DNA of 41,062 nucleotides from positions 1 to 41,062 of IMG/VR virus record IMGVR_UViG_3300045922_000286. The stretch is one strand, 5' to 3'. The translations under genes and the position numbers were made by a program. The number at the start of each line of letters is the position of its first letter. Within the stretch, counting starts at the first letter, position 1. The notes beneath the pieces are model-generated. The model worked only from the letters and a program-made list of their open reading frames with translations. It ran no database searches and was not told where the DNA came from. Origin of the DNA: a virus. Below are positions 3,408 to 34,600 of the stretch, one piece after another.

Positions 3408-3415
3408 GGAGAACC
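3408..3415 (+). promoter_or_regulatory. GGAGAACC extended RBS motif
   Basis: Exact copy, 4 nt before the ATG at 3420. It selects that start over an in-frame ATG at 3402. Confidence 0.75.
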
Positions 3416-3419
3416 GCCC

Positions 3420-8111: not shown

Positions 8112-8420
8112 ATGCGCGCGATTTCGCTCACCCGCGGACACGATCTCTTCTCCGTCCTTCGAGATATGGTCGAGGATGGAATTCCGGACGGGCCGGCCCT
8201 CGTCTATTACGACAGCAAGCCGTGCATGCGGCTCGGCTCCATCCATGCCGCGGCGTGCCTCTCGGTGCGCGAGAGCCCCGGCTGCCGCTTCGTCCCCTAC
8301 GCCCCGCATCCGAAGGCGCCGCCCCTCGGGCCGCGCATGTCCGCGCTGCTGGCCGCGGCCGCGCAGGCGCGGGCGGAGCGGGCTGCGCGCCGGGCTGCGA
8401 AGGCGAAGCGTCATGGTTGA
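8112..8420 (+). CDS. Small unknown protein
   Basis: A 102-residue protein with start fixed by the GGAGAACC motif. A compact N-terminal part (LTRGHDLFSVLRDMVEDGIP, VYYDSKPCMRLGSIHAAACL) is followed by a Pro-rich linker and an Ala/Arg-rich helix (AAAAQARAERAARRAAKAKR). The basic tail suggests nucleic-acid contact. Not recognised. It overlaps the following DUF5131 gene by 8 nt. Confidence 0.65.
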   Translation: MRAISLTRGHDLFSVLRDMVEDGIPDGPALVYYDSKPCMRLGSIHAAACLSVRESPGCRFVPYAPHPKAPPLGPRMSALLAAAAQARAERAARRAAKAKRHG

Positions 8421-9342
8421 GAACACGAAAATCGAGTGGACCGACCACACCTTCAATCCGTGGACGGGCTGCACGCGCGTCTCGCCGGGCTGCGACCACT
8501 GCTATGCGGAGGCCATGTCGAAGCGGAACCCAGGCTCCTTCGGCTCATGGGACCCGGGCGCATCGCGCAAGCGCACTGGCTTGTCCTACTGGCACCAGCC
8601 TCACCGCTGGAACAAGGCAGCCGAGAAGGCGGGGCGCCGGCAGCGCGTGTTCTGCGCGTCGATGGCAGACGTGTTCGACAATAAGGCGCCGGAGGAATGG
8701 CGCGACGATCTGTTCGAGGTCATCCGCTCGACGCCGCACCTCGATTGGCTGCTGCTGACGAAGCGACCGCAGAACATCGCGCGCATGCTGCCTGCCGATT
8801 GGCGGGACGGCTATGCGAATGTCTGGCTCGGGACCACCGTCGAGGACATGGCGCGCGCGCGCCAGCGCATCCCGGTCCTGCAGAGCGTGCCGGCGGTCGT
8901 GCGCTTCCTCTCGTGCGAGCCGCTGCTCGAAGGGCTGGACCTCAACCCCTGGCTGGCGCGCGGCGGGCTGCATTGGGTCATCGCGGGCGGCGAGAGCGGC
9001 CCAGGGTTCCGCGCGGTCGATGCCGATTGGATGCGGTCGCTCCGCTTCCAATGCATGGGCTCCGGCACAGCGTTCTTCGCGAAGCAGATGGCCGGCGCGC
9101 GCAAGCCGCGCGAGGGCACCAAGCAGGAGGCGGTGCTCGCCATGCTCCGCCGCCCCGAGGGCGCGACGGTGGCGCAGATCGCCGAGGCGACCGGCTGGGC
9201 GCCGCACACGGTCCGCGGCTTCTTCGCCGGCCTCAAGAAGCGCCAGGGGATCACGGTCGAGGTCCGGGAGCGGGTGCGCCAGGTCGGCCCCAACAAGGAG
9301 GGCGCCCGCGGCTCCTACACCGTCTACCACCTGCCGGCGTGA
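8413..9342 (+). CDS. DUF5131 (phage Gp37/Gp68) protein fused to DUF3489
   Basis: A 309-residue protein. Residues 1-235 are a DUF5131/Gp37-Gp68 domain: IEWTDHTFNPWTGC opens it, and Cys20, Cys27 and Cys30 form a CX6CX2CYAE site like the metal cluster motif of radical-SAM-like proteins. LLLTKRPQNI, LSCEPLLEGLDL and VIAGGESGPGFR are family hallmarks. Residues 236-309 match DUF3489: a winged-helix part (LRRPEGATVAQIAEATGW, then HTVRGF) and a beta end (SYTVYHL). Gp37/Gp68 proteins are widespread in phages with no firmly established reaction. DUF3489 is normally a separate DNA-binding-like protein, so a cluster-bearing enzyme may be tethered to DNA here. It overlaps the upstream gene by 8 nt. Confidence 0.8.
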   Translation: MVENTKIEWTDHTFNPWTGCTRVSPGCDHCYAEAMSKRNPGSFGSWDPGASRKRTGLSYWHQPHRWNKAAEKAGRRQRVFCASMADVFDNKAPEEWRDDLFEVIRSTPHLDWLLLTKRPQNIARMLPADWRDGYANVWLGTTVEDMARARQRIPVLQSVPAVVRFLSCEPLLEGLDLNPWLARGGLHWVIAGGESGPGFRAVDADWMRSLRFQCMGSGTAFFAKQMAGARKPREGTKQEAVLAMLRRPEGATVAQIAEATGWAPHTVRGFFAGLKKRQGITVEVRERVRQVGPNKEGARGSYTVYHLPA

Positions 9343-10784: not shown

Positions 10785-11321
10785 ATGCGAAAAGGTCGTG
10801 GACGCCCCCCGAAGCCGGTCAAGGCGCATCGCCTAGAAGGCACATTCGAGCCCCACGCGCATGCGCGGCGGGAGATGGCGGAGCCGGAGCCGGTCGGCGA
10901 CCTCTCGCCGGTCCCCCCCGAGTGGCTGTCCGAGACGGGGAAGCGCATCTGGTCGGCGACGCTTCCCTTCCTGATGCGCGGCGTGGTCGGCGCTTCGGAT
11001 TTTCAGGTCCTCGCAGCATTCTGCAATCAGGCGGCGGTCCACGCCCAGGCCGTCCGCGCGCAGGCGACGCTCGACGCGGGCAAGGAAATGCCCTTCCTGA
11101 CGCGCGGCAAGGACGGGACGCCCATCGTCTCGCCCTATATTCGCGTGGCGAGGCAGGCGGCGACCGCCATGACGCAGTTCGCGGCCGAACTCGGATTGAC
11201 CCCGACCGCTCGTGCGCGCATCGGCGCCATGGCGTTCGCGCCCGATGCGCCGACCGTGCCGAGCGCGGAGGACCCGTGGAGTGCGTTCAAGGTCATCGAA
11301 GGCGGGCGACGGAAAGCGTGA
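10785..11321 (+). CDS. terS: Terminase small subunit, P27 family
   Basis: A 178-residue protein. The N-terminus MRKGRGRPPKPVKAHRLEGT matches the P27-family opening (basic GRPPKP then RLxGT) and also resembles an AT-hook, fitting DNA recognition. The middle (PPEWLSETGKRIWSATLPFL, then ASDFQVLAAFCNQ) and the C-terminal SPYIRVARQAATAM and LGLTPTARARI are typical of the family. The small subunit binds the packaging site and hands DNA to TerL. ATG 10785 is used because the P27 signature begins there, though no strong Shine-Dalgarno precedes it. The terL start lies inside its 3' end. Confidence 0.85.
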   Translation: MRKGRGRPPKPVKAHRLEGTFEPHAHARREMAEPEPVGDLSPVPPEWLSETGKRIWSATLPFLMRGVVGASDFQVLAAFCNQAAVHAQAVRAQATLDAGKEMPFLTRGKDGTPIVSPYIRVARQAATAMTQFAAELGLTPTARARIGAMAFAPDAPTVPSAEDPWSAFKVIEGGRRKA

Positions 11322-13023
11322 CGACCGCGCCGGCTGGCCTGCGCTGGTCCTCCGAGGCATCGCCTATGCCGAGCGCGTGGTCTCGGGGGAGATCGTGGCC
11401 GGGCGCTACGTGCGCCTCGCCTGCCACCGCTTCCTCGCCGATCTGAAAGCCGCGGAGCGCGCGCGCGCGACCTGGCGCTTCGACCCGGAGCGCGCCGTCG
11501 AGCCGATGCGGCTCGCCGAATTGCTGCCGAACATCAAGGGGCCGCAAGCTGGCCGGCCGATCCGCCTCATGGATTGGCAATGCTGGATTTTCTCCAACCT
11601 CTTCGGCTTCGTGGACCGCAAGACCGGGGATCGTCGGTTCAGGCAGGCCTGCGTCTATTGCCCGCGCGGCAATGGCAAGACGAGCATGGCGGCCCCTATC
11701 GCGCTCTACCTCACCTTCCTTGAAGGCGAGGGCGGCGCGGAGGGCTACGCCGCGGCGGTCACGCGCGATCAGGCGAAAATCCTGTGGGACGTGGCGAAGG
11801 CGATGGTGGACCGGACCCCGGCCCTCTCGTCGCGCTTCGGCGTCGCGACGAGCAGGAATTCCATCTACCAACCGTCCACGTCCTCGAAATTCGTCAGCAT
11901 CAGCAGCGACGCGAAGGCGCTCGACGGGCTCAACGTGCACGTCGCCGTCTGCGACGAGATCGCGAGCCACCGGACGGCGAATGTCTATGACGTGCTGCTC
12001 ACGGCGCTCGGGAAGCGGGCGCAACCGCTGCTCCTGAGCATCAGCACCGCGACCGGCAACAACGCCGGCATCGGTCGGAAAATCCACGACTACACGCAGA
12101 AGGTGTTGGAGGGCTCGCTCAAGGACGAACGGTTCTTCGGCGTCATCTATGCGGCAGACATGAATGATCCGGTGTGGGAGGAATCGACGTGGATCAAGGC
12201 GAATCCTGGGTGGGGCGTCACGGTCCAGCCTGATGCCATCCGGGCAATCGCCAATCAGGCGCGCGCGTCGCCCGCGCAGGAGATCGCTTTCAAGACGCGA
12301 CACCTCAACCTGTGGACCTCGGCCGACACGAGCCTCTTCCTGATGGAGGCGTGGCACCGATGCCGGAAGCCGAGCCTGCGTCTGGAAGATTTCGAGGGCA
12401 TGGAGTGCTACGCCGGGATCGACCTCTCGTCGAAGATCGACATGACCTCGGCGTGCCTGATCTTCCCGATCCGCACGGCCGGGGAGCCGACCCGCTACGC
12501 CATCTTCTCCCGCTCGTGGCTCCCCGAGGCGACGGTCGAGGGGGCGCGGAACGCCTCCTATCCCGAGTGGGCGAGGACCGGGGCGCTCACCGTCACGGAG
12601 GGCGAGGTCATCGACTTCGATGCCGTCGAATCCTTCCTGCTCGAAGCCGCCGACCGCTTCGATCTCCGGAGCGTCGGATACGATCCATGGAGCGCGAAGC
12701 AACTCGCGCAGCGGATGACGAATGCCGGCGTGCCGATGGTCGAGGTTCGGCAGACGGTGATGAACCTCTCGGAGCCCACGAAGGAACTTGACGCGCTCAT
12801 GCGCTCGGGACGGATCGCCCACGATGGCAATCCGGTGCTCGCCTGGGCGATCTCCTGCGTGATCGGGCGCTATGACGAGAAGGGTAACGTGTTCCCGAAG
12901 AAAGACAGGAACTCCGACAACAAGATCGACGCGGCCATCGCAGCGATCATTGCCGTGGCGATGGCGACGGCGGCGGAGCAAAAGACGGTCCATCTGACGG
13001 AGAGCCCGCTGATGCTGATCTAA
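11281..13023 (+). CDS. terL: Terminase large subunit
   Basis: A 580-residue protein. The GTG at 11281 is chosen because GGAGG lies at 11267-11271; this makes a 41-nt overlap with terS. The ATPase part has a Walker A-like CPRGNGKTS (about residues 127-135) and Walker B VAVCDEI (about 222). The nuclease part has CYAGIDLSSKIDMTSA, VGYDPWSAKQLAQ and DNKIDAAIAAI, which supply acidic metal-binding residues of the RNase H-like nuclease. Sequence fits the Terminase_1 group of HK97-type phages. It is the motor that fills the procapsid and cuts the concatemer. Confidence 0.92.
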   Translation: MRSRSSKAGDGKRDDRAGWPALVLRGIAYAERVVSGEIVAGRYVRLACHRFLADLKAAERARATWRFDPERAVEPMRLAELLPNIKGPQAGRPIRLMDWQCWIFSNLFGFVDRKTGDRRFRQACVYCPRGNGKTSMAAPIALYLTFLEGEGGAEGYAAAVTRDQAKILWDVAKAMVDRTPALSSRFGVATSRNSIYQPSTSSKFVSISSDAKALDGLNVHVAVCDEIASHRTANVYDVLLTALGKRAQPLLLSISTATGNNAGIGRKIHDYTQKVLEGSLKDERFFGVIYAADMNDPVWEESTWIKANPGWGVTVQPDAIRAIANQARASPAQEIAFKTRHLNLWTSADTSLFLMEAWHRCRKPSLRLEDFEGMECYAGIDLSSKIDMTSACLIFPIRTAGEPTRYAIFSRSWLPEATVEGARNASYPEWARTGALTVTEGEVIDFDAVESFLLEAADRFDLRSVGYDPWSAKQLAQRMTNAGVPMVEVRQTVMNLSEPTKELDALMRSGRIAHDGNPVLAWAISCVIGRYDEKGNVFPKKDRNSDNKIDAAIAAIIAVAMATAAEQKTVHLTESPLMLI

Positions 13024-13219: not shown

Positions 13220-15316
13220 ATGCCCGACGCCCTGCCTCCGTCCTTCGATCCGGTCGCGCTCGCCATCGGTCGCGAGCATAAGGCGACGGCTATCCAGGAC
13301 GCCAAGAACCCGTGGCGCTTCGTCCTCTCGACCGAGAGCGTGGACCGCATGGGCGACATCATCGAGGCTTCGGGCTGGCGCCTCGCAGCGTTCAAGAAGA
13401 ACCCCATCGCCCTATGGGCGCACGACCATCGCTCGCCCATCGGCGTGTGGGAAGATATCGCCGTGCAGGACGGCGTGCTCTCGGCGACGCTCAAGATGGC
13501 GGCGCATGGGACGTCCCCGTTCATCAACACCATCCGCTCACTGATCGAGCAGCGCATCCTGCGCGCCGTCTCGGTCGGCTTCCGTGCAATCAAGGCGGAG
13601 CCCATCGAAGGCTCGAAGGTCGGCGGCATCCGGTTCACCGAGCAGGAACTGCTCGAAGCCTCCGTGGTGAGCGTCCCGGCGAATCCCGAGGCGCTCGCGA
13701 TTGCAAAATCGTTCTCCGTTCCGCCTGCCGATCTGGCGCGGCTCTTCGTCGCATCCGGCCATAAGGCCGCGCCCGTTCCGGCCCGAGCGGCCCCCCCGGC
13801 GCCTCCGCCGGCATCCACCACGAACCCTACGAACCCGACGACCACAGGAACCCGGAACATGAAGATCGCCGAACGTATCGCGCAGATGGAGGCCGACCTG
13901 CTCAGCAAGCGCGACTCCCTCACCGCGCTCACGGCCAAGGACTCGCTCGACGAGAGCGAGACGGTGCAATTCGAGGCGCTCCCCGACGAGATCGCCACCC
14001 TGGAACGCTCCATCGCCTCGTGGAAGAAGGCGCAGTACGCGCTTGCCGCTGCCGCGCAGCCGGCGGGGAGCGAGCCCGGCGCCGGGAGCCACCAGCGCGC
14101 GGCCGAGGGCGCGCTGGCCGCGCCGCGCAGCCATCCGACCGTGCCGGCGCAGCCGCGGCGTGGCCGCGCCGCCGACCTTCTCGTGCAGGCGGCGCTCGTG
14201 TCGCTCCGCTCCCACACCGAGCGCCGCGCAGCCGACGAGATCGTGGAACGCGATTTCGGCGACAGCCGCGAGTTGCAGGCGGTCGTGCGCGCGGCGACCA
14301 ATCCGGCGCAGACCGGCGTGACGGGCTGGGCGGCCGAGCTCATGGAGGAAGTCACGATGGACTTCCAGGACATGCTGATGCCGGAGTCGATCTGGCGTCG
14401 CCTGCCGATGCAGCGCATGTCCTTCGACAACGGCAAGATTCGTCTCCCCGGCCGGTCGGCCCGTGGGCTCGCGGGCGATTTCGTCGCCGAGGGCCAGCCC
14501 ATCCCCGTGAGGCAGACCGCCTTCGCGTCGGTGTCGCTCGAACCCTACAAGATGGCCGTCATCACGGCCCTCACGCGGGAACTCGCCAAGTATTCGAACC
14601 CGCAGGCGATCCCGATCCTGAGGCAGGCGATGATCGACGACACCATCGTCACCCTCGATAGCCTGTTCCTCGACGCGAACGCCGCCGTGGCGACGCTTCG
14701 CCCGGCCGGCTTGCAGGCGACGGCGACCGGCTCGAACACGCGCGTGTCGTCCGGCACCACGCTCGCGAACGTCATCACCGATCTCAAGGCGGCGACGGCG
14801 CAGATGAGCGCGCTGAACATGGGCCGCCGGCCCGTGTGGGTGATGAACACCGTGCGGCTCACGTCGCTCTCGCTGATGCAGAACGCCTCGGGCGGCTTCA
14901 TGTTCAGGGACGAACTCGCCGGCGGCCAGGGCACCCTCGTCGGAATTCCGGTGCTGCACTCGACCACCGTGCCCTCGAACGTGGTGTTCCTGATCGACGC
15001 GAGCGAACTGGCGACCGCCGCTGAGATCACGCCGGAGATCGAGATCAGCACGGAAGCGGCGCTGCACATGGAGAGCACCGCGTCCACCGCGAATGCGGCT
15101 GGCACGGGTGCGACGGCCGGCACCGTGGCGCCCATCGCCTTCCCGGCCGGCGGCGCTCCGGGCGGCACGCCGGGCACGCCCGCCATCGGCGACTACGCGC
15201 AGCCGGTGCGCTCGCTCTTCCAGACCTACAGCCTCGCGCTGCGGATGATCTGGCCGGTCGATTGGACCGTGCGCCGCGCGGGCGCCGTGCAGACGATCAC
15301 GGGCGTCGCGTGGTGA
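13220..15316 (+). CDS. Prohead protease fused to major capsid protein (HK97 fold)
   Basis: A 698-residue fusion. Residues 1-165 are an S78 prohead protease: His68/His70 in WAHDHRSPIG, Ser118 in RAVSVGF, and LLEASVVSVPANPEA near 144-158. Residues 183-213 are a Pro/Thr-rich linker. Residues 214-275 are a coiled-coil delta (scaffold) domain. From about 310 to 698 is the capsid shell protein (PAQTGVTGWAAELME, GLAGDFVAEGQPIPV, LTRELAKYSNPQAIPILRQA). Met214 (ATG 13859) follows AGGAACCCGGAAC and could be an internal start giving the capsid protein alone. Usually protease and capsid are separate genes; fused forms are known and are cleaved during maturation. Confidence 0.9.
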   Translation: MPDALPPSFDPVALAIGREHKATAIQDAKNPWRFVLSTESVDRMGDIIEASGWRLAAFKKNPIALWAHDHRSPIGVWEDIAVQDGVLSATLKMAAHGTSPFINTIRSLIEQRILRAVSVGFRAIKAEPIEGSKVGGIRFTEQELLEASVVSVPANPEALAIAKSFSVPPADLARLFVASGHKAAPVPARAAPPAPPPASTTNPTNPTTTGTRNMKIAERIAQMEADLLSKRDSLTALTAKDSLDESETVQFEALPDEIATLERSIASWKKAQYALAAAAQPAGSEPGAGSHQRAAEGALAAPRSHPTVPAQPRRGRAADLLVQAALVSLRSHTERRAADEIVERDFGDSRELQAVVRAATNPAQTGVTGWAAELMEEVTMDFQDMLMPESIWRRLPMQRMSFDNGKIRLPGRSARGLAGDFVAEGQPIPVRQTAFASVSLEPYKMAVITALTRELAKYSNPQAIPILRQAMIDDTIVTLDSLFLDANAAVATLRPAGLQATATGSNTRVSSGTTLANVITDLKAATAQMSALNMGRRPVWVMNTVRLTSLSLMQNASGGFMFRDELAGGQGTLVGIPVLHSTTVPSNVVFLIDASELATAAEITPEIEISTEAALHMESTASTANAAGTGATAGTVAPIAFPAGGAPGGTPGTPAIGDYAQPVRSLFQTYSLALRMIWPVDWTVRRAGAVQTITGVAW

Positions 15317-16284: not shown

Positions 16285-17622
16285 ATGGGCGCTCGTTCGC
16301 GGCGTCGGGGGAGGCGCTCTGCGGCGACGCTCCCGGCTGTCATCGAAAAGTCGGCCCCCCCGCCCGCGTCCTACCCCGTAGGCTGGTGGCAATCCGGCAT
16401 GCGGCTTCCCGAGCATCGCAGCGCCGCGGCCGTCGAAGCGTGCGTGAGCGCGATCTCGCAGACGGTCGCGATGCTCCCGCTATACCACTACCGGGAGCGT
16501 CCGGACGGCGGCATGGAGGTGATCAGGGACTCTCCGGCGGCGCGGGTGCTGCGGAAGCCAAACCACTTCCAGACGCGCGCCGATTTCTTCGTGGCGCTCA
16601 CGCGCTCCGAACTCTTCAAGGGCAATGGGGTCGCCGTCGCGACGCGGGATCGCCGCGGCGAGATCGCAGGCCTGATCCCGGTCCCGCCCGGCGCGGCGCA
16701 TCCCTACGTGGAATCGTCGAGCGGCGAAGTCTTCTACGGCGTTGGCTACTACGATCTGCTCCCCGATCCGCCCGTCGCGAACCTCTGGCCGGCGCGCGAC
16801 GTGCTCCATATCCGGCTGCACACCGGGCATCATCCGCTTATCGGCGTGACTCCCCTCACGGCCGCGGCGATGGCCGTGGCTTCGGCCGGCGCGATCAACA
16901 CCGGCATCGCGGCGTTCATGACGAACCTCGTGCGGCCTTCCGGCTACCTCTCCGTGCCGCAGGGCGTGACGCTCTCGAAGGAAGTGCAGGAGCAACTTCG
17001 GTCTGATTGGACCGACAATGCGACCGGCATCAACGCTGGCCGGCTCGGCGTCCTCTCCCACGGCATCAAGTGGGAGCCGATGAAGATGGACGCCTTCGAC
17101 GAGGCGGTGGTGAAAGCCTACGCCATGAACACCGCTGACATTGCCCGCGTGTTCCGCGTGCCGCTGCCCATCATCAACGAACTCGGCGGCGCGACGTTCA
17201 ACAACGCGGAGACGTTGATCCGGCACTGGCACGCGACCGGGCTCGGCTTCATGCTCGAACACATCGAATTGGCGCTGGACGCGCTCTTCGAACTGCCGCC
17301 CGACGAATTCATCGCCTTCGACGTGGAATACATCATGCGCTCGGACTTCCCGGCGCGCATGGACGCGCTGGCGAAGGGGGTCCTGGGCGGCATCTACGCG
17401 CCGAACGAGGCGCGGCGGAAGGAAGGCCTGCCGGCGGCGAAGGATGGCGACGAGCCGCGGCTGCAAGCCCAGGTCGTGCCTCTCTCGGCGGCGAGCCAGC
17501 CGCCGCCCGCACCGCCCGCGGCGGCCCCTCCCGCCCCGCCGGCTCCGGCCGAGGAAGCGAGCGTAGAGGGAGCGGCGGTGCGGATGCTCGCGCGCATGCG
17601 GAGGATGGCGGATGCCTCGTGA
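16285..17622 (+). CDS. Portal protein, HK97 family
   Basis: A 445-residue protein with family landmarks: AVEACVSAISQTVAMLPLYH (about 50-70), RVLRKPNHFQTRADFF, SELFKGNGVAVA, DVLHIRLHTG, GVTPLTAAAMAV, and RVFRVPLPIINELGGATFNN, then AETLIRHW. The C-terminal 60 residues are Pro/Ala-rich. The portal is the dodecameric ring through which DNA enters. It lies after the capsid gene here, whereas the common order is terL-portal-protease-capsid. Confidence 0.92.
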   Translation: MGARSRRRGRRSAATLPAVIEKSAPPPASYPVGWWQSGMRLPEHRSAAAVEACVSAISQTVAMLPLYHYRERPDGGMEVIRDSPAARVLRKPNHFQTRADFFVALTRSELFKGNGVAVATRDRRGEIAGLIPVPPGAAHPYVESSSGEVFYGVGYYDLLPDPPVANLWPARDVLHIRLHTGHHPLIGVTPLTAAAMAVASAGAINTGIAAFMTNLVRPSGYLSVPQGVTLSKEVQEQLRSDWTDNATGINAGRLGVLSHGIKWEPMKMDAFDEAVVKAYAMNTADIARVFRVPLPIINELGGATFNNAETLIRHWHATGLGFMLEHIELALDALFELPPDEFIAFDVEYIMRSDFPARMDALAKGVLGGIYAPNEARRKEGLPAAKDGDEPRLQAQVVPLSAASQPPPAPPAAAPPAPPAPAEEASVEGAAVRMLARMRRMADAS

Positions 17623-20305
17623 TGGTGAACTTGGTGCGCCCAACGATGCGCTTCTCCTGGCTGTCTCGGCCTTCGTGGTCGAGCGCGTTGGGTTGGCGCA
17701 GGCGGAACTCGCGAAAGCGGGCGCCTCGGCCGAAGCCCGCGCTGCGGCCATCGCGGCTGATCTCCGCGACGCGATCTCGGCGGTCGAAGCGCGCGTCGCG
17801 GCGCTCGCGGCGGAGGAAGGCGCGCGCGCGGAGGGCGAGGGCGAGCGCATCCTTTCCGCCGTCGCGCCCCTCTTCGAGCGCGTCGAAGAGATCGCCGCGC
17901 GGCCGATGCTCACCGAGGCGGAGGTCCGGGCGTGGTTCGCCGAAGAGGCGGCGCGCATCGCGGAAGAGCGGGAGCGGGCGACGGCCGATCTTCGGTCGGC
18001 GGCTCTAGCAACGTGGATCGGCGATCTTGAATCCGTGCGCCGCTTGGAAGCCGATTTGCGCGCCGCGCTTGCCGATATGGCTTCGCGCGTTGCCGCGCTC
18101 CGGGACGGCGTGGACGGGAAAGACGGCGAGCGCGGCCCTGCCGGCCCGGCGGGGCCGCAGGGCGAGCGGGGGGAGCGCGGCCCGATTGGCGACCGAGGCG
18201 ATCCCGGCCCGCAAGGCGAGCGCGGCGAGCGCGGTGAGCCCGGCGAGCGCGGGCCGCCCGGGACTATTGACGCGGTGCCAGTTTGGGAAAGCCGCTGGCA
18301 CGAGGAAGGCGAGACTGTCTTCCATCGCACCGGGATGTGGCGAGCCTCATCAGCGACGGCGGACGAGCCGAGCACCGTAGGCGCTCCGTGGGAACTTTTG
18401 CATCCCGTGATGCATTTTTGCGGCCCTTGGCAGGAAGGGGTTGAATATCGGCCCCTTGCCGTTGCGCTGCACAATCGCTCCGGCTGGCTTCGTAACCATG
18501 AGCCGGAAGACGGGAAGCCGCCGGGCGAATCGGCTTGCTGGAACTTGCTCGCCAAGCAAGGCAAGCCCGGCAAGCAAGGGCCGGCCGGGCCGCCAGGCGA
18601 GCGCGGCGCCCCCGGCGCTCCGGGCGAAGCCGGGCGCGGTATCGCCGGGCTGGCGTCCGAGGGGCATCTTCTCCTTGCGGAGATGACGGACGGCACCGTC
18701 ATATCCGTGGAATTGCCAGAACTCATTCAGGCGCGGGAAGTTCTTCAGTCCGTAACTCGGACCATGAAAGCCGCCGGGCTAGACGGAATCGTCGGCGAAG
18801 ACGATCCGCTGGGCGCGATCATCCGCTTTTTCCGCGGGACGTGGCAGCCGGATGCGGTCTATCGGCGAGGCGATCTCGTCAGGCAGGGCGCGGCTCTATG
18901 GCTCGCGCTTGATGAGCGGGTCACGGAACAGCCGCTTCCGGCTTCTCGCGCTTGGGCACTCGTGCTCCGGAGCGCCGGCGGAGCAGCGGGCGGCGGCTCC
19001 GGCGAGCCGGGGCCGGAAGGTCCTCCTGGCGTTGGAGTGCCCGCCGGCGGGGAAGCCGGCGAGGTTCTGGTCAAAGCCAGCGGCGACGACTTCGACACCG
19101 CTTGGGCGCGGCCATTCACGCAAGATGAGGCGGACACTCGCTATGTTTTGAAGGCCGGCGATACGATGAGCGGGGCGCTGGCTGTCGAAGCCTCGGCTGG
19201 CGGGCCGGCGCTGCGCGTAACTCAGACTGGCGCGGGCGATGCGCTGCTTGTCGAGGATAGCGCAACCCCCGATAGCACCCCATTCGTCGTTAAGGCAGAC
19301 GGCAAGGTCGGCGTCGGCACTCTTTCGCCCTCCGTGCTTTTGCAGGTCGCCGGCGACATTACGGCCAATGGCAATCTCTCTCTGGCGAAAGTCGGCCCGC
19401 AGTTCTTCCTTGATAGCGTAGGGGCGACGGTCGGCGAGGTGGTTTGGCGGCGCGACGGCGTGTTCCGATGGGCCGCGCGTGGATGGACGCAGGCTGATCC
19501 GAGTCTCTACTTCCAACATTTCGACAGCGCCGGCGTGCTTGTCGCAAATGTTATGGAGTTGACTGGCGGCGCCAATGCAGCCGTGGCCGTCCGGAACGCC
19601 AATGCGCCGGGAACCCCCGGGCTGACGTTCGTCGACGATACCGATACCGGGATGTTTCGCGCCGGCGCCGATCAAATCGGCTTTTCGTCCGGCGGCACTC
19701 GGCGCCTGCATCTCACGACGACGGCCTTCAACGTTGAGACCGCGCTCGTCGCGCAGGCGGGGACGGAGGGCGCTCCCGGAATCGCCTTTTCGGGCGATCT
19801 CGATACTGGCGTCCGGCGCACGGCGGCTGATACCGTCGGCATCGTGGCCGGTGGAGCGTCGCGGCTTTCTGTCTCGGCTTCCGGCATCACGGCGACGAAT
19901 CCGATCACATTGCCGGGAGCGCCGACTTCGGCGTCGCATGCTGCGACGAAACAATACGTCGATGCCGCGGCCGCAAAGCCGTTTGCGCTAGCCTTCGACT
20001 TCGGCCCCGGCTGGCTCGATCCGGCCTTGCCCGCTGGCGTCGTGCTCATCGAAGGCGGCACTATTCCGGCCAATTTCAGCGGTTCGTTTGCCCGCTATGG
20101 GGTCGCTGCGACAACTTCCGGCGAGATCGCCATCAAGCGGAATGGCTCGACGATAGCGACTCTCACGTTCACGCCGAGTGCGTGGTCTTTCGGGACGACA
20201 ACCGCTGTCACGCTGGCGGCTGGCGACTATATCGAAGCGGCGCCGGGGGCGCCGGATGCGACTCTCGCCGGCGTCCGTTTTTCCATCAGGGTCGAAAGGA
20301 CATAG
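17612..20305 (+). CDS. Collagen-like fibre with three carbohydrate-binding-like modules
   Basis: An 897-residue protein that overlaps portal by 11 nt. Residues 15-165 are a long Ala/Glu-rich coiled coil. Residues 165-217 and 317-342 are G-x-y collagen-like stretches, with a short one near 463-475. Three modules share a W...G..Y/V...G..V...G..W.A....P....W pattern like CBM5/12 sugar-binding folds (about 224-263, 268-313, 406-452). From about 505 the protein turns into tail-fibre-type beta repeats (TRYVLKAGDTMSGALAV; VDDTDTGMF and SGDLDTGVR repeats; ATKQYVDA). Inference: a trimeric fibre. Its gene is tied to portal rather than to the tail-tip genes, so it could be a head- or neck-attached fibre. 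Confidence 0.8.
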   Translation: MPRDGELGAPNDALLLAVSAFVVERVGLAQAELAKAGASAEARAAAIAADLRDAISAVEARVAALAAEEGARAEGEGERILSAVAPLFERVEEIAARPMLTEAEVRAWFAEEAARIAEERERATADLRSAALATWIGDLESVRRLEADLRAALADMASRVAALRDGVDGKDGERGPAGPAGPQGERGERGPIGDRGDPGPQGERGERGEPGERGPPGTIDAVPVWESRWHEEGETVFHRTGMWRASSATADEPSTVGAPWELLHPVMHFCGPWQEGVEYRPLAVALHNRSGWLRNHEPEDGKPPGESACWNLLAKQGKPGKQGPAGPPGERGAPGAPGEAGRGIAGLASEGHLLLAEMTDGTVISVELPELIQAREVLQSVTRTMKAAGLDGIVGEDDPLGAIIRFFRGTWQPDAVYRRGDLVRQGAALWLALDERVTEQPLPASRAWALVLRSAGGAAGGGSGEPGPEGPPGVGVPAGGEAGEVLVKASGDDFDTAWARPFTQDEADTRYVLKAGDTMSGALAVEASAGGPALRVTQTGAGDALLVEDSATPDSTPFVVKADGKVGVGTLSPSVLLQVAGDITANGNLSLAKVGPQFFLDSVGATVGEVVWRRDGVFRWAARGWTQADPSLYFQHFDSAGVLVANVMELTGGANAAVAVRNANAPGTPGLTFVDDTDTGMFRAGADQIGFSSGGTRRLHLTTTAFNVETALVAQAGTEGAPGIAFSGDLDTGVRRTAADTVGIVAGGASRLSVSASGITATNPITLPGAPTSASHAATKQYVDAAAAKPFALAFDFGPGWLDPALPAGVVLIEGGTIPANFSGSFARYGVAATTSGEIAIKRNGSTIATLTFTPSAWSFGTTTAVTLAAGDYIEAAPGAPDATLAGVRFSIRVERT

Positions 20306-20307
20306 CG

Positions 20308-20778
20308 ATGGCTACGGTGAAGTGGGCGGCTCCCGGATCATGGGCGCCAATGTTCGATTCGGCCGACCTAGCCAGCCTGAGCAATGCCGCGGTTGCGCTT
20401 TCGTCGCTGACGGCGCCCCAGGTGGATACAACGTCTTCAAGGCAACTCTACTTCCAGGCGGAATTCGTCGGCGGCTCGATCAGCCCGGCCAACGGCGGCG
20501 ACGTGGTGCTGATCCTGATTCCGCGCGATTCCGCAGACGCCGCCTATTCGGACGGCGAAGCCGGCGCCACCATCGCCAATCAGCCGGTCTGGATGCAGTT
20601 TCCGCACGTCGTGATAGGCCTGCGCGCCAAGGCTTCAAGCGCCCAACTCGTCGTCAGCGCGGTCGCCCCGCTCCCGCCGAACAAGTATCGCGCGGCGCTG
20701 CTGAATCGCGCCGGCGTCGCGCTCGCCGCCTCCGGCAATCAAGTGAACCTTCGCCTGCTCACCGAGGAAGTGGCCTAG
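20308..20778 (+). CDS. Unknown accessory virion protein
   Basis: A 156-residue protein with GAAAGGA 7-8 nt before ATG 20308. The sequence is beta-rich (QLYFQAEFVGGSISPANGG, VVLILIPRDS) and has no Cys. It follows the fibre gene by 2 nt and precedes a LamG-like gene, so it may be a fibre cap or accessory. Not recognised. Confidence 0.65.
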   Translation: MATVKWAAPGSWAPMFDSADLASLSNAAVALSSLTAPQVDTTSSRQLYFQAEFVGGSISPANGGDVVLILIPRDSADAAYSDGEAGATIANQPVWMQFPHVVIGLRAKASSAQLVVSAVAPLPPNKYRAALLNRAGVALAASGNQVNLRLLTEEVA

Positions 20779-20781
20779 GCG

Positions 20782-21714
20782 ATGCTCATCACGCGGGCGC
20801 GGCCGTTCTCTGGGGCGATGGCCCCGTCGTTCACGCAGAACGGCGCGCGCCTGAATGTCCGCAGCCCATTCTCGCGGCAACTGGCCGGCCTTTTTGTCCC
20901 AGAGGCGCCCGGGGGCATGCTCGGCAGGGTTGCCACTACGGCGCGCGCGGACGTTTTCAATCTTGCCTACGCTTCGCAGCCGGGCATCGGCGTGCAGCCG
21001 CTTGCGTTCTATACGCGCTCGGGATCGGGAGGCGCGGCGAACAAGCCGGACGTTCGGACCGACTCTTTCGGGCCATATTGGGATTTCCCGGACACAGGCC
21101 GGAGGTTCCGCCTCTCGTCCGGAAGCGAGGATATGTGGTGGCGCCCCGGCAACTCAGGCGGGCACGCGCCCGGCACTCTGATGTTCGTCGGGCGACTAAC
21201 TGGCAATACGGGCGGAGTTCAGTGCGCAATCGGGTTCAGCGCGAATAGCGCGAATTATTTCTTCCTTGGTTTCAACAACGGCAACGCATACGCGCAAATT
21301 CGGACGAACACGGAGCGGGCCTTCAATTCTTCTGCGCTGACGGTCGGCAATCCGGTTTGCGTCATCTTCACAACCCGCGCGCACAATGACCACGAGTTGG
21401 TCACCCTCGATCTCCGCACCGGAAGTCGGACTTCAAACAGCGGCACGCTTTCGAGCGGGACCGCCGGAACGGTTCCAGCTAACTACGGCATCGGCTTCAA
21501 TACCGGGACCGGCGATACCCACATCATGAGCCAAGGCCGGATTTACCTCGCGGCAGGATGGGCGCGCGGTATGGCGGCCGACGAGATGATCGCGCTCGCC
21601 TCCGACCCGTGGCAAATCGTGGCGAGCAACCCGCATTTGCGAAGAAGGAGGTATTCGGCGGCGGCGCCTCCGAACCCCGGCGGGTTCCGGCCCCGGGTCA
21701 CAATTCTTGGGTAG
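20782..21714 (+). CDS. LamG/concanavalin-like surface protein
   Basis: A 310-residue protein. A central beta-rich domain (DFPDTGRRFRLSSGSEDMWW, PGTLMFVGRLTG, NYFFLGFNNGNAYAQIRT) followed by GRIYLAAGWARGMAADEMIA and LASDPWQIVASNP is the pattern of concanavalin A-like (LamG) domains with the ending common in phage surface proteins. Such domains bind sugars. Base composition here is less GC-rich than in the core late genes. It may be an adhesion or fibre-associated protein. Confidence 0.65.
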   Translation: MLITRARPFSGAMAPSFTQNGARLNVRSPFSRQLAGLFVPEAPGGMLGRVATTARADVFNLAYASQPGIGVQPLAFYTRSGSGGAANKPDVRTDSFGPYWDFPDTGRRFRLSSGSEDMWWRPGNSGGHAPGTLMFVGRLTGNTGGVQCAIGFSANSANYFFLGFNNGNAYAQIRTNTERAFNSSALTVGNPVCVIFTTRAHNDHELVTLDLRTGSRTSNSGTLSSGTAGTVPANYGIGFNTGTGDTHIMSQGRIYLAAGWARGMAADEMIALASDPWQIVASNPHLRRRRYSAAAPPNPGGFRPRVTILG

Positions 21715-21770
21715 CGCCAAGCGCGCCCAAGCATGGCGTTCGGCAATTCGTAGCCGCGGAGGGCGAAATA

Positions 21771-22163
21771 ATGGTTAAGGCTGTGCAGGATGCGGCCCGC
21801 GTGGTTGCGGAAAACATGATGCTGATCGCGCTCTCGCGCCTTATAATGGCGCTCGGCGTGCCGGTTATACTCGCCTCGGTCTTTTGGGTGTCCCACCAGA
21901 TCGTTGCGCTGGATCGTCGCGTCGCCTTGGTCGAGGATAAAAAGCCCGAGACGGACCGGCGGATTGCCGAAGTGGAACGCCAGAATCAGCGCACTCTAGA
22001 AGATTTGCAGCGCGCGAATGCGCGGCTCGGCGACGAGACGGCACGGATCACGAATCGCTTCGCTTCGATTGAGGCGGGAATCGCTACGCTGATCGCTCAG
22101 CAAGCAGGAACCCAACGGGCCATAGAGCGCCTTGAGCGCACGTTAGACGGTCGGAGGGATTGA
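21771..22163 (+). CDS. Membrane-anchored coiled-coil protein of the lysis region
   Basis: A 130-residue protein with GCGGAGG upstream. Residues about 17-42 (LIALSRLIMALGVPVILASV) form one membrane span. The rest is a continuous coiled coil (IAEVERQNQRTLEDLQRANA). It directly precedes the holin-like gene with a TGATG overlap. It could be a third lysis accessory protein or membrane anchor; its coiled coil resembles inner-membrane spanin subunits, but a better Rz/Rz1 pair follows. Confidence 0.65.
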   Translation: MVKAVQDAARVVAENMMLIALSRLIMALGVPVILASVFWVSHQIVALDRRVALVEDKKPETDRRIAEVERQNQRTLEDLQRANARLGDETARITNRFASIEAGIATLIAQQAGTQRAIERLERTLDGRRD

Positions 22164-22360
22164 TGCCGCACATGGCTGCCGCGAATTCGGCGTTGCTCCC
22201 GGTCGTTCGCCAGATCGTCCAGCATTTGGCCGGCGTGATCCTCGGCGCGGGCGTGCTCACGGAGAACGAAGCCGCCGTGGTGGCTGGCGCCATCGTCGCT
22301 GTCGCGAACCTCGCCTGGATGCTGGCGGCGCGGGCGAAGGCGCAGAAGGCCGGGCCGTGA
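22163..22360 (+). CDS. Putative holin
   Basis: A 65-residue protein, ATG overlapping the upstream TGA. Two hydrophobic segments (HLAGVILGAGVL; AAVVAGAIVAVANLAWMLAA) are separated by a short acidic turn (TENE), with a basic tail. This is the layout of small phage holins such as the Pam3-gp28 type. It sits directly before spanin and endolysin genes. It would form membrane holes that set lysis time. Confidence 0.65.
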   Translation: MPHMAAANSALLPVVRQIVQHLAGVILGAGVLTENEAAVVAGAIVAVANLAWMLAARAKAQKAGP

Positions 22361-22563
22361 GCCTGGAACTCATCCTGGCTGCCGTCGTGGGCGTGGTCAC
22401 GCTCATCGTCGGGGCCTTCATGCGCGGATCGAAGGCAGGTCGCGACGGCGCGGCGGCCGAGGCCGCGCGCAGGCGATCCGAAGCGGAGAAGAGGGGCAAT
22501 GCGGCTGCTGCCGATGCTGGCCGTGACGGCGCTGCTGAGCGCTTGCGGCGCGGCGATTTCTGA
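22357..22563 (+). CDS. Inner-membrane spanin (Rz-like)
   Basis: A 68-residue protein from a GTG overlapping the holin stop. Residues 2-22 (SLELILAAVVGVVTLIVGAF) are a membrane anchor; the rest is a charged helix (AEAARRRSEAEKRGNAAAAD). The following lipoprotein gene begins inside it in another frame, which is the hallmark nested Rz/Rz1 arrangement. It is shorter than lambda Rz (153). Confidence 0.65.
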   Translation: MSLELILAAVVGVVTLIVGAFMRGSKAGRDGAAAEAARRRSEAEKRGNAAAADAGRDGAAERLRRGDF

Positions 22564-22702
22564 CAGGCCCGCCTGCCGGGTCACGGAGTTCCCGCGTGAC
22601 TTGCAGATGCAGGCGGCGGAGGAGCTCCGCACCGCCCCGGCGCTGCGAACCATGATGGACGCCATGGCGCAGGACCGGGCGTTCAACCGGGCGGTGCGCT
22701 GA
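22499..22702 (+). CDS. Outer-membrane spanin lipoprotein (Rz1-like)
   Basis: A 67-residue protein embedded by 65 nt in the Rz-like gene. A signal peptide ends in the lipobox LLSAC (Cys16). The mature part is about 52 residues. With the Rz-like protein it would bridge the periplasm and fuse the inner and outer membranes at lysis. This implies a Gram-negative host. Its TGA overlaps the endolysin ATG. Confidence 0.7.
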   Translation: MRLLPMLAVTALLSACGAAISDRPACRVTEFPRDLQMQAAEELRTAPALRTMMDAMAQDRAFNRAVR

Positions 22703-23415
22703 TGAGCCTCGATCAGCTCCGCGCCCTGTTCGCGCGCCCGCATCCCGTCCATGACGCGGGCATCGCGCAGGGGACGGTGCCGGTCCAGGCGGTGGGGGAG
22801 CCGAACTGGCGCGCCATCCTCGCCGCCGCCGGCATGGTCCGCCCGGAGGCATGGGCGGCCGCCATCGCCGGCCCGGCGGGGCGCTACGCGATCAATAACC
22901 GGCTCCGCGCCTGCGCCTTCGCGGCCACCATCGCGCATGAGAGCGGCGGCGGGGCGCGCATGGTCGAGAGCCTGAACTACCGCCCCGAGGCGCTTCTGGC
23001 GACCTGGCCGCATCGGTTCAGCCCGGAGGATGCGCGGCGCATGGGGCGGCTGGACGGCAAGCCGGCCGATCAGCGCGCCATTGCCGAGCGCGCGTATGGC
23101 GGGCGTATGGGCAACGGGCCGGAGGGCTCGGGCGATGGCTGGCTCTATCGCGGGCGGGGGCTGATCCAACTTACCGGCCGAGATGCCTACCGCCGAGCGA
23201 CGCAGGCGACCGGCCTTCCCCTCGAAAATCATCCCGAACTCGCCGAAGAGGAGGGCGTAGCCGCCGAGGTCGCTTGCTGGACCTGGGGCGCGTGGAAGGG
23301 CTGCAACCCGCTGGCCGACGCCGAGGATGTGGAGGGCTGGCGGCGGGCCATCAACGGCGGGCTGAACGGCCTTGCTGACGTGAAGGCGCGCTACGCGGCG
23401 GCGCTGGCGGCGTGA
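22702..23415 (+). CDS. Endolysin, glycoside hydrolase family 19
   Basis: A 237-residue protein. AFAATIAHESGGGARMVESL (Glu80 catalytic, second acidic residue near 89) and RGRGLIQLTGRDAYRRA are GH19 chitinase/lysozyme-like landmarks found in Gram-negative phage endolysins. WTWGAWKGCNPLAD and INGGLNG complete the fold. No signal peptide, so it depends on the holin. The N-terminal 30 residues are an extension before the usual domain start. Confidence 0.88.
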   Translation: MSLDQLRALFARPHPVHDAGIAQGTVPVQAVGEPNWRAILAAAGMVRPEAWAAAIAGPAGRYAINNRLRACAFAATIAHESGGGARMVESLNYRPEALLATWPHRFSPEDARRMGRLDGKPADQRAIAERAYGGRMGNGPEGSGDGWLYRGRGLIQLTGRDAYRRATQATGLPLENHPELAEEEGVAAEVACWTWGAWKGCNPLADAEDVEGWRRAINGGLNGLADVKARYAAALAA

Positions 23416-23525: not shown

Positions 23526-23596
23526 TGGTGCGTAGCCAAGCGGTAAGGCAGCGGGCTTTGATCCCGTCATCCGAGGTTCGAATCCTCGCGCACCAG
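23526..23596 (+). tRNA. tRNA-Gln (anticodon TTG)
   Basis: A full cloverleaf: acceptor TGGTGCG (23526-23532) with CGCACCA (23589-23595); a D-arm with GCC/GGC; anticodon stem GCGGG/CCCGT around the loop CTTTGAT (anticodon TTG); T-arm CGAGG-TTCGAAT-CCTCG. The discriminator base is G, and the CCA end is not encoded (CCG follows). It lies inside the late operon. A complete tRNA rather than a 3' fragment argues for translation use, not an att site. Confidence 0.92.
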
Positions 23597-23634
23597 CCGC
23601 GCAGATGCGGCGCTTAGGAAGGGTGTGGGGAGCG

Positions 23635-23781
23635 ATGGATTGCAACCGCTTCGAGCAATACGGCGACGAGGCATGGATGCTTTGGGCGGAGCGCCGGGCG
23701 CGTCGGCGCCTCGGCTTGGCGCTGCTCGCCGCGGGGATATCCCTGGCTCTTCTGGCCGGGATGCTTGTTCTGGCGGATTGA
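23635..23781 (+). CDS. 48-residue membrane protein
   Basis: GGGGAG lies 4 nt upstream of the ATG. A charged N-terminus (CNRFEQYGDEAWMLWAERRA) precedes one membrane span (LGLALLAAGISLALLAGMLV). Position after the tRNA suggests a lysis- or membrane-related accessory gene. Confidence 0.5.
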   Translation: MDCNRFEQYGDEAWMLWAERRARRRLGLALLAAGISLALLAGMLVLAD

Positions 23782-23876
23782 AGGCTTCTTTACGTTTCTG
23801 TTGGCGGAAAGTAAGCCGACGCGCTATCGCCTTCATAGTGCCTTTCGGCATCGCCGTTTGGGAAGGTATGCGCGCC

Positions 23877-24581
23877 ATGTTCCCCGATTCCTCCATTCAG
23901 GCTCCGGCGCCGGACCCGAGCGAGCCGCTAATCGCGGTGGACGATCTTGCGGCGCTTCTCGGCTTGACGCTTCCGCTGGGGCCGCCGCTGGATACGCAGG
24001 TCGTCTTTGCCGCGCGGGCAGTCGCCGCCGCGATCCGGTCGTATTGCGGGCGCCAGATCGTCCGCGGCGAGTATGCCGAACGATTCATTGGCGGCTTGCC
24101 GGTGGAGCGAGAGGGCGAAGGCGGGCCGCTCTATTGGCGGCTGACGCTGACGGAACGGCCGGTCGGAGAAATTGTCGAAATAAAGTCCGGATCGCGGCTC
24201 CTCAACCCGGAACTGGCGGTCATTCACGGCACGCTCGGGGTCGTCCTTGTCCCGGTTTCCCTGGCCGGCGCGGCGTCGCCAATCGACGTGACTTATCTAG
24301 GCGGCTTCGACCCGCTTCCTGGCGATCTCGCGGCGCTCTACGTCGATCTTTGCCGGCGCCAGTTGGTCACCATGGGCGCGCCCGTGACCGGCGGCTCCGG
24401 CGCGCCGGTCAAGGCCGTGACGGTCGGGGCGCTCAAGATCGACTACGCCGTGAACAGCGTCGATGCCGCCGGCGCACTGGTGGGCGGGCCGATGCCGCTC
24501 ACGGCCGATGCGCTCGCGGCCTACGATCCGATCCTGGGGCAATACAAGTCCGTTCGGATGCTCGCCGCGACGATCTGCTGA
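23877..24581 (+). CDS. Head-tail connector protein (gp6-like)
   Basis: A 234-residue protein. ATG 23877 is chosen because GGAAGG lies about 10 nt upstream; a nearer ATG at 23868 is too close to it. IAVDDLAALLGLTLPLGPPL, VAAAIRSYCGRQI and LTERPVGEIVEI are typical of gp6-like adaptor proteins that form a ring under the portal. SPIDVTYLGGFDPLPGDLAA also fits this family. Confidence 0.8.
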   Translation: MFPDSSIQAPAPDPSEPLIAVDDLAALLGLTLPLGPPLDTQVVFAARAVAAAIRSYCGRQIVRGEYAERFIGGLPVEREGEGGPLYWRLTLTERPVGEIVEIKSGSRLLNPELAVIHGTLGVVLVPVSLAGAASPIDVTYLGGFDPLPGDLAALYVDLCRRQLVTMGAPVTGGSGAPVKAVTVGALKIDYAVNSVDAAGALVGGPMPLTADALAAYDPILGQYKSVRMLAATIC

Positions 24582-31240: not shown

Positions 31241-31614
31241 TGCGCTCGCGGTGGTTCGCCCTCGTCGGCCGGCCCTACGGCTTCCCGAGCCGCCCGCCGG
31301 AGACGTTCGACTGCTGGACCCTCGTGAAGTATGTGCGAACGGCGGAGGGGCTTCCTTGCCCGCTCCCCTTCGATGATCAGGCAGCATGGTGCGTGCCGGG
31401 CAATCTCGCCCGCGCCACGGCCGAAGCGCGCGCCATGTGGCGCCCCCGCGCGCCGGGCCACGATCTGGACGTGGTCGTGCTTGAGCCAGCGCATGTCGGG
31501 GTCGCCCTCGGCGGCGGCGTGCTCCATGCGCTCGCGCGCAATTCAGGCGTGGTATGGACTTCTCCCGCTGTCTTGCGGCGGCATTGGCCAGCAGCCGAAT
31601 GGTGGACCGTATGA
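31240..31614 (+). CDS. NlpC/P60-type peptidase of the tail tip
   Basis: A 124-residue protein overlapping its neighbours on both sides by 1-4 nt. Cys25 in FDCWTLVKY is the nucleophile, and HVGVALGGGVLHAL (about 85-98) carries the His positions. Such peptidases in tail tips (lambda K-like) cut peptidoglycan peptides during DNA entry or aid tip assembly. Confidence 0.78.
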   Translation: MRSRWFALVGRPYGFPSRPPETFDCWTLVKYVRTAEGLPCPLPFDDQAAWCVPGNLARATAEARAMWRPRAPGHDLDVVVLEPAHVGVALGGGVLHALARNSGVVWTSPAVLRRHWPAAEWWTV

Positions 31615-34600
31615 ACGCCCTCACCGCGATCCGCACATGCCGGATCATCGTCACCGATCCCTTCGAGCAGCGGCAGGACGTGCACGATGTGGCGCCGGGC
31701 GGGACGCTCGCCGATGCACTCATGTCGATTTCGCCGGGTCGGTGGGGCGGCGCGCACATCGAACTCTATGACGGCGCGGTCACGGCGGCGTCCGAGATTC
31801 CGCTCGACGATGCCCGCGCGATCCTTCTGGAACCGGGCCGCGTCTATCACGTCATCGCCGTGCCGGCGGAGGCCTATTCGATCTCGGCGGCGGTGATCGC
31901 CGCAGTCGGCGTCTCGGCCACATCGGCGGCCGGCGTCGCAATCACCATCGCCGTCTACATCGCCATCATGGCCGTGACGATGGCGATCTCCTACTTGGTC
32001 ACGATGCTCCTGGCGCCGGGCAAGCAGGCGAACAAGGCTCTCTCGCCCGAGGATCAGCCGTCCGCGCTGAACTCGCTTTCTCCGCCGCGCAACATGTTCC
32101 GCCTCGGCGCGCGCGTGCCCGAGATTTACGGGCGCATCCGCTTCTGGCCGGACCTGATCTTCGCGGCCACGGCGCAATGGTTCCCGGTGCAATGGACGGC
32201 GAACATCGCACCGAGCGTGAACGAGAACACGGTCCCAACATCGCGCCAGGAAGTCTCTGCGGTCTATTGCCTCGGGCGCGGCCACTTCGAGACGACCGAC
32301 TTCCGATTCGGCGACAGCCCCGTGTCGAATGCCAACGGGATCGTCACGGTCTATCCGCCTGGCGTCACGCTGCCATCGTGGCTCACGGCCTCCTATGCCG
32401 CGGCCGATCTCTCCCGCTTCGAACTCGGCGGCCTCGGCTCGCCCACGATGTGGTCCCCGTGGTTCACGATCCCGGCCGACGAGATCGACCGCATCGACGT
32501 TCAACTCTCATTCCCGCACGGCCTGATCCATCTCGCGTCGGGCCGCAAGGTCCCGCCCGGCTACAACTCGGAATCGCTGGCCATCATCATCCTGGAAGGC
32601 CAGCGTCTGGATGAAGATGACAACGTGATCCAGACGATCAGCCACACCGAGATTTATCGCGCGCGCACGAGGAACGAACTCCGGGTCACGATGACTCGCG
32701 CTCTGCCGCGCGGCCGGTGGCGCTTCCGCGTCGCGGAGACGCTCGACTGGACCCCGTATCCGAACGGCAACGTCTATACGAACATCAACAAGACCGTGCT
32801 CGAAGGCATGGTTGGGCATCGCTACCTCACGCCCGAAGAACGCACCTTCGCGCACGAGACGTGCATCATCGTGAAGGCGAGCAACGTCAACAATCCGGCC
32901 TTGCAGAATCTCGAAGCGTTCAACCTCATGGCGGCGCGCGTGCTTCCGACCCAGGACGTGCCCGGCGTGATGACGGCGCCTCGCGCCGACGCGCGCTGGA
33001 TCACGGCGGCGATCAACACGCTGACCGATCCCTTCATCTGCAACTACGCGATGGACGAAGTGGATTGGCCGTCGCTCCATGCCGTGCAGGCCTCGCTTGA
33101 GTCCTACCCGGACGGCTTCGACGAGGGCGAATTCAACGGCGCGCTCGACCGCCAGATGACCGCCGACGAGCAACTCATGCTCGTGGCACGCAAGGCTCGC
33201 GCCTATGTCTTCCCCTCGGGCGGCAAGATGACGTTCGTCCGTGACGAGCGGCGCACGGCGATCTCCGCGCTGTTCAATCGGCGCAACCGCCTTGCCGGCC
33301 GCGGCGAGGTCGGGCTCGGGCTGCAATTCGCGCAGCGCGACGATCCGGATGGCGTGACGATCTCGTTCATCAACGCGCTCAAAGGCTACCGCCAGGACAC
33401 TTACACCTATCCCGAGGGCGTGACGCCGATCGCTCCGCTGTCGATTGATCTCGTCGGCGCGGTCTATCCTCACGAGGTCTGCCGGCGCGCGCGCTTTGAA
33501 ATGGCGCAGATCAGGTATCGTCGCCGCTCCATGCCGCTCCGCGTCACGGAGGAAGGGCAGTTGCTGATGCCGATGGATCGCGTCGGCGTGGTGATGCCGT
33601 GGTCTGAGGGAGCCATCGACGGCGAGGTTCTGGAAGTCGATGGCATGGACCTTCGGATGGACCGGCCGATCCCAACGCTCACGGCCGACGCAAGAATTCG
33701 CATTCGGCGTGAGGACGGCCGCGCGACGCAACTTCTCTCGCTCACGAACTCGGTGCGCGGGCCGGAGTGGGTGACGCTCGCGGGGGTGAGCGGCGACCTC
33801 GAATTTCCTGTCTTCGCTCCGTCCGACACGCGGCAGATCGGGACGCTCTACAACATCACCACGTCCGATGCCTTCGATCAGCAGACCTTTTGGTTCGTCA
33901 CCGGCGCACAGATCGATGATTCGGGCGTCACCCTCTCGCTCGCGAACGATGCCGACGAGGTATACCAACTCTCGGACGACCTCTTGATCCCGTGCGTCGA
34001 TCCGCCGGCCTTCGCCTTCTCGCTCCTGAGCGATGGGGGCAACGATGGCTCGGTCTTCGGCGGCAGCCTCACCATGACGGTGCCGCAATGCGATCCCGGC
34101 GACATTCTGTTCGCCGTCCTCGGCAGCTCCGGGCCCTACTACGACCCTCCCGCGGGATGGACCGTCATCGACCGCGTGGATGATCCCACGACCACCCTCG
34201 GCGGGCGACGCAACATCCTGGCGTGCTACCGCATTGCGACCGAGTCAGAGCCGGCTACCTACACCTTCCCTCGAAGCGGCGGCTCCCTCTCGGGCGGCCA
34301 GATCACGCGCATCGGCTGCAATCGGCACGTTGGCTCGCTCGTCTATGGCGGCAAGGCGACCCATATCGCCCCGACCGCAACCGGGCGCGTCGTCACGCAT
34401 CCCGGCATTGCGGTGGACCAGCCGAAGTCGATCATCATCGTCGGAACGGTGATCGGCGCGACGGTCTATGCCGACCCGTGGCCGCAACTCGCCGCGGCCG
34501 ATGCGCCGGGCGTGTGGGTCAAGCAGACCCATATGTCGTGGGTTCCGGGGGCGCAGCCGGTTTATGCGGCCACGGTCCATTGCCTTACGCCGCCGCCCGA

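Follow-up and report, generated by a model that had tools for sequence, protein, structure and literature searches.

A portal-coupled collagen and CBM5/12-type fibre gene in a virus genome, and its possible role as a neck fibre

In the 41,062-base IMG/VR virus record analysed here (IMGVR_UViG_3300045922_000286; "the window" means this whole stretch), the portal gene overlaps a gene at 17612-20305, on the plus strand, that codes for a fibre protein of 897 residues containing collagen-like runs, CBM5/12-type modules and tail-fibre-like repeats. By its sequence, the protein appears to be a member of a widespread portal-coupled family that has gained about 520 tail-fibre-like residues; members of this family are kept beside the portal in many genomes and in Escherichia coli can be joined to it in one chain. 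We lean, with limited confidence, towards an external, trimeric neck fibre anchored on the portal or neck, gene position and the fusions being what would place it at the neck.

The overlap between the two genes, claimed by an earlier reading of the window made without database searches (the sequence-only reading), is confirmed by the coordinates and amounts to 11 nt (17612-17622), the portal gene extending from 16285 to 17622 on the plus strand (445 residues; Pfam Phage_portal E 1.4e-70, phrog_12 E 2.5e-75). A GGAGG ribosome-binding site for the fibre gene is found inside the portal gene, at 17600-17604 (plus strand, as are all parts of the fibre gene given below), 7 nt before the ATG. Residues 1-165 (17612-18106), which align in part with other portal-coupled proteins, probably form a helical stalk and are proposed as the portal anchor. 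They are followed by collagen run 1, of 18 triplets (residues 166-219, 18107-18268), by module 1 (residues 229-262, 18296-18397) and module 2 (residues 265-320, 18404-18571), by collagen run 2, of 9 triplets (residues 317-343, 18560-18640), and by the end motif of the portal-coupled family (residues 341-373, 18632-18730); the rest of the chain contains module 3 (residues 405-453, 18824-18970), collagen run 3, of 5 triplets (residues 461-475, 18992-19036), and a tail-fibre-like distal part (residues 476-897, 19037-20302).

The Pfam Collagen family (PF01391) matches the protein with 42.1 bits, against a cut-off of 27.2, and is the sole domain found in a Pfam scan of the full protein at E 0.1, which gave no MuF domain. 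In 2000 shuffled versions of the protein the longest G-x-y run had 6 triplets (2 of 2000) and runs of at least 5 triplets occurred in 57; collagen runs 1 and 2 are real and run 3 is marginal. The modules were scored with a profile hidden Markov model (HMM) obtained from 33 modules of other phages, with the rows of the window excluded. Modules 2 and 3 are certain (28.6 and 26.5 bits), while module 1 is weak and probable (7.6 bits); the top domain scores in 1000 shuffled proteins were 9.5, 6.7 and 5.8 bits, so that one shuffle scored above module 1. At E 0.05 no open reading frame (ORF) of the window other than the fibre gene matches this HMM. A chance origin is thus ruled out by the shuffles for the first two collagen runs and for modules 2 and 3, whereas module 1 and run 3 stand at the margin. 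Finally, over its last 528 residues the protein matches several tail-fibre PHROGs (phrog_18345, phrog_28766, phrog_21722 and others; best E 2e-10). Of the features proposed by the sequence-only reading, the terminal fibre repeats and the G-x-y stretches were therefore both recovered, the latter as two clear runs and a marginal one, and two of its three W-rich CBM5/12-like modules are clear.

Residues 1-373 align end to end, at 32-36% identity, with the portal-coupled proteins of four of the closer portal relatives (loci L026, L030, L031 and L027), sharing with them collagen, module 2, the second collagen run and the end motif. The relatives stop at this motif or at most 9 residues further on; the window protein continues for about 520 residues. 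A search with the full-length fibre gave 24 loci, most of them matching the distal fibre, and an HMM for HK97-type portals found no match in any of the 24. One of these loci (L004:3409-6990) has instead a Mu-type portal next door (Pfam Portal_Mu E 1e-29), and 15 nt beyond this portal comes a gene for a collagen tail fibre of 699 residues; this is the same arrangement with an unrelated portal type, which suggests that it arose more than once. The last 119 residues of the fibre have no confirmed relative in IMG/VR. The profile of PHROG 1289 matches the window protein weakly (E 0.0015 over residues 216-373) and is not among the top 25 matches listed for the full protein; its nearest relatives match phrog_22633 better than PHROG 1289.

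The position beside the portal is conserved. An IMG/VR search seeded with the portal kept 80 loci, 77 of them assessable, and in 69 of the 77 the ORF starting at the portal stop contains a module (61 loci), collagen (62) or both (54); in the same loci, 10 ORFs with module or collagen are located elsewhere. Since 33 of the loci gave rows of the module HMM and several contigs are near-duplicates, these counts are a description and not an independent test. Two collagen-less portal relatives (L034:5739-6137 and L050:3563-3934) have another type of short protein in this position, with a short end motif and, in L050, Pro/Val-rich repeats.

A second scan compared genome contigs with a family alignment (A2) made from portal-coupled proteins, the scan itself being blind to neighbouring genes. 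It kept 80 loci, mainly from Alpha-, Beta- and Gammaproteobacteria, judging by their titles, with a few other metagenome-assembled genomes. A portal is found upstream in 73 of the 80, directly adjacent in 69 of these 73, distances being measured from the start nearest to the portal stop and so biased to small values; in three others (L142, L159 and L161) the contig begins within 426 bases of the match, leaving little or no room for a portal. The ORF after the family gene, which could be set for 76 loci, matches phrog_442 in 60 and phrog_40 in 55, both head-tail adaptors. A search of INPHARED with one family member found 21 records, of which 19 are also among the portal matches listed and two are unannotated faecal contigs. 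In all nine annotated phage records inspected among the 19, the family gene follows the portal or is fused to it. Annotated starts in nine records give overlaps of 20, 8, 4, 4, 4, 4, 4, 1 and -4 nt. Names of the gene in public records are "portal protein", "putative portal protein" or hypothetical. Portal coupling had been offered by the sequence-only reading as a clue to location; it gains weight from the same kind of protein standing between portal and adaptor in many genomes and from the natural fusions, and the location it would indicate is at the portal, be it the neck exterior or the capsid interior.

The fusions were found in E. coli. Escherichia phage vB_EcoS-783R2 encodes portal and module in one ORF, the only such ORF among the loci scanned for it, and at the joint it differs from phage JLK-2012 by one G in a run of G. 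Of 5426 complete E. coli genomes, 1233 carry the junction between portal and family member, and coordinates give a span longer by one base in 19 of the 40 junction matches listed. Six matches were inspected: the ST131 junction, with six G, is a single intact coding sequence (CDS) of 861 residues; four junctions with five G are marked as frameshifted by RefSeq; and one, in which the sequence at the run is not the same, has two CDS, both named "phage portal protein". Across the E. coli prophages and phages of loci L197-L202, L192 and L194, the two proteins thus come either as one CDS (six G) or as two overlapping ORFs (five G). PHROG 2271 (859 positions) is of the same kind, its front matching portals and its end matching family members; when the fused E. 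coli protein was compared with the PDB, portals alone were found. That separate E. coli assemblies carry the extra G speaks for the fused form being a real allele, though in some records the extra G may be a sequencing matter. For the window, a programmed frameshift joining portal and fibre was considered and set aside: ahead of the portal stop, the reading frame of the fibre gene stays free of stops over just 18 codons, and the corresponding stretch varies widely in length across the 73 genome loci. Only two states of the E. coli run, five G and six G, were seen. It is conceivable, though doubtful, that this run toggles between a fused chain and two chains, slippage or phase variation setting the number of fibres per particle, that portal-tethered collagen fibres are a widespread and unrecognised virion part under the name "portal protein", and that in phages like that of the window the fibre has grown into a second organ of host contact, mounted at the neck.

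The AlphaFold2 model of module 3 (predicted local distance difference test, pLDDT, 92; predicted template modelling score, pTM, 0.76) supports a CBM5/12 fold. Its best fold match is the tail fibre of cyanophage A-1(L) (Z 8.1, 55 residues, 2.6 Å), followed by Serratia ChiB (Z 7.7, 47 residues, 1.8 Å) and, lower, by other chitinase modules, phage Milano and an Anabaena injection system. Z values near 8 are middling, but the fold matches agree with the sequence matches. The model of modules 1 and 2 has a mean pLDDT of 77.6, about 90 for module 2, which matches A-1(L) (Z 7.2) and ChiB (Z 6.1). Fold-related modules are found in the fibres of phages A-1(L), Milano and 7-7-1. Among the structures listed by the fold searches none is of a portal-coupled member, which says nothing on absence. 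In Pfam, CBM5/12 (PF02839) does not match module 3 of the window; 25 of 36 modules match it at E 1 or better (best 1.4e-5), and four family members scanned singly stay below its 26.2-bit cut-off.

In chitin-binding CBM5/12 modules an adjacent aromatic pair serves chitin binding. The Tyr-Trp pair of the chitinase module 2rts aligns with residues of the phage module that are polar or small, and Phe, Tyr and Trp are absent from both positions in all 36 phage modules; chitin binding by an aromatic face of the 2rts type is therefore unlikely. Thus, the part of the sequence-only reading that foresaw a carbohydrate-binding fold agrees with the models, while its suggestion of a chitin or mucus adhesin was not adopted, as the missing pair leaves no positive evidence for such attachment.

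The protein is produced together with the portal, stays next to it across many genomes and at times shares a single chain with it, which is most simply read as assembly with the portal or the adaptor; its collagen and fibre repeats suggest an outward orientation and so a neck fibre, comparable to gp40 of Vibrio phage XM1. Collagen, modules of a kind known from phage fibres and tail-fibre repeats all point to an exposed part. A front of about 370 residues, comprising helical stalk, collagen, two CBM5/12-type beads, collagen and end motif, would be made from the portal message and would associate on assembly with the portal or the underlying adaptor ring, three chains forming a collagen triple helix. 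With one copy per portal chain, twelve chains would give four trimeric fibres round the neck; were the adaptor ring the anchor instead, six trimers would be possible. The last 520 residues or so, with the third bead and the tail-fibre repeats, would be an added distal fibre, most likely making contact with the surface of the host as an auxiliary to the usual fibre at the tail tip.

Several observations weigh against a neck fibre. No virion proteomics or structure of any family member was found. Residues 1-168 alone gave no confirmed relative in the IMG/VR search, and at the sensitivity of that search the proposed anchor thus shows no conservation; 8 of the 77 portal relatives have no module or collagen gene beside the portal, and four genome loci (L167 and L189-L191) have the module without a portal. 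In addition, the portal C-terminus probably lies in the crown inside the capsid, and a fusion at this end alone does not place the fibre outside. For this reason an internal location is a serious rival, which we nevertheless consider unlikely: the protein would be bound to the lumenal end of the portal, inside the capsid, and be packaged or ejected with the DNA. The E. coli fusions do sit at the portal C-terminus, and a precedent is gp7 of phage SPP1, which is encoded near the portal gene, enters the procapsid interior and helps infection to start, according to the available text of PMC6316719. Conversely, exposed fibres are where collagen, CBM-type beads and tail-fibre repeats are typically seen, Collagen is the only domain that Pfam gives for the window protein, and a fibre of 897 residues would be hard to fit in a packed head.

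An ordinary tail fibre or receptor-binding protein at the tail tip, with the place after the portal due to genome history, seems improbable. The distal tail-fibre matches fit it, as do the genes 3' of the fibre, which lead into a lysis stretch such as often follows tail-fibre genes. However, short relatives lacking the distal fibre hold the same place in many genomes, natural portal fusions exist, and another fibre-like gene already lies after the tail-tip gene (34755-35915, plus strand; PHROG matches, and Mtd_N at E 1.4e-5, just under cut-off). A fibre-like gene thus also occupies the customary position in this phage, in agreement with the sequence-only reading, which had noted that fibre genes normally lie there. 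A helper of portal folding or of the start of procapsid assembly, with no stable place in the virion, would suit the coupling and the one-chain fusion and is very improbable, as a collagen fibre of 897 residues is an odd chaperone and some portal relatives lack the gene.

Returning to the neck fibre, a described counterpart is gp40 of phage XM1, a long trimeric, tailspike-like collar spike located at the neck, besides the baseplate parts (PMC10457771). The proposed fibre of the window would resemble it in place; in contrast, gp40 is anchored by an Ig-like domain on gp4/gp5, and the available text of PMC10457771 describes no collagen or CBM5/12 module for it. The whiskers of T4 (fibritin, wac) are trimeric fibres attached at the neck (PMC10491603, as far as the available text goes) and resemble the proposed fibre by description in both respects. 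Among portal neighbours, SPP1 gp7/MuF binds the portal protein gp6 and is internal (PMC6316719, same text), differing from the proposed neck fibre in location and in having no collagen or fibre parts. The same source describes SPP1 gp12, a collagen-like trimer of 64 residues that sits on the outside of the capsid and whose gene precedes that of the major capsid protein; it resembles the proposed fibre as a collagen-like trimer on a phage head, and differs in size, site and gene place. A further phage collagen group, EPclA-D of enterohaemorrhagic E. coli prophages, combines collagen with coiled coil in tail-fibre architectures with PfN/PfC domains, and the portal goes unmentioned in the available text (PMC3368898); membership of the same family was rejected on this difference of architecture. 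Phage AH14a was considered as a source of virion proteomics and set aside as uninformative, a head morphogenesis gene following its portal in the part of PMC4936722 available.

Among the closest known systems are the proteins of PHROG 1289 and PHROG 2271 (PAJU2 gp07 and JLK-2012 gp62 among them), which, like that of the window, directly follow the portal (in one chain with it in PHROG 2271); they precede the adaptor and contain repeats, either collagen or helical, with a CBM5/12-type module at the C-terminus. Unlike that of the window, they have no distal fibre of 520 residues, and their label names a packaging protein. Indeed, the label "portal protein" appears to have spread, through PHROG 1289, PHROG 2271 and GenBank entries beside the true portal, to a protein of collagen and CBM5/12 type which is itself no portal. 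T4 wac, to our knowledge, is not coupled to the portal. Neck fibres and phage collagens are already known; a collagen/CBM5-12 family that is coupled and sometimes fused to the portal was not found described in our searches of the open PubMed Central literature, and the window would add to it a member extended into a full fibre. If the neck fibre is real, a second "portal protein" family moves from the packaging machine to a fibre; otherwise it may be an unexpected internal partner of the portal. The natural fusions supply a definite anchoring point at the unique vertex, and the RefSeq tag "frameshifted" on the inspected split forms would mislead if both forms work.

As for the neighbouring genes, the terminase large subunit (11212-13023) precedes an ORF in which prohead protease and major capsid protein are fused (13220-15316), two small ORFs, the portal and the fibre; the portal thus lies 3' of the capsid gene and not before it. 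After the fibre there are ORFs of 156 residues (20308) and 310 residues (20782), neither with a family match and the second with no confirmed relative in IMG/VR, and a lysis stretch with an endolysin (22702-23415) as its last gene. The head-tail adaptor (23625-24581, plus strand; phrog_442 E 8e-11) is consequently displaced by about 3.3 kb from the fibre gene, with the stretch 20308-23415 intervening, unlike in most relatives. Between endolysin and adaptor lies a tRNA-Gln (TTG; 23526-23598), either a phage tRNA or an old attachment site; the adaptor is followed by the tail terminator, the major tail protein, the tape measure and the tail-tip protein (31554-34736). Elsewhere, a protein with DUF5131 and DUF3489 is encoded at 8176-9342, and a domain resembling the cell-cycle regulator GcrA at 3350-4339; this domain suggests an alphaproteobacterium as host.

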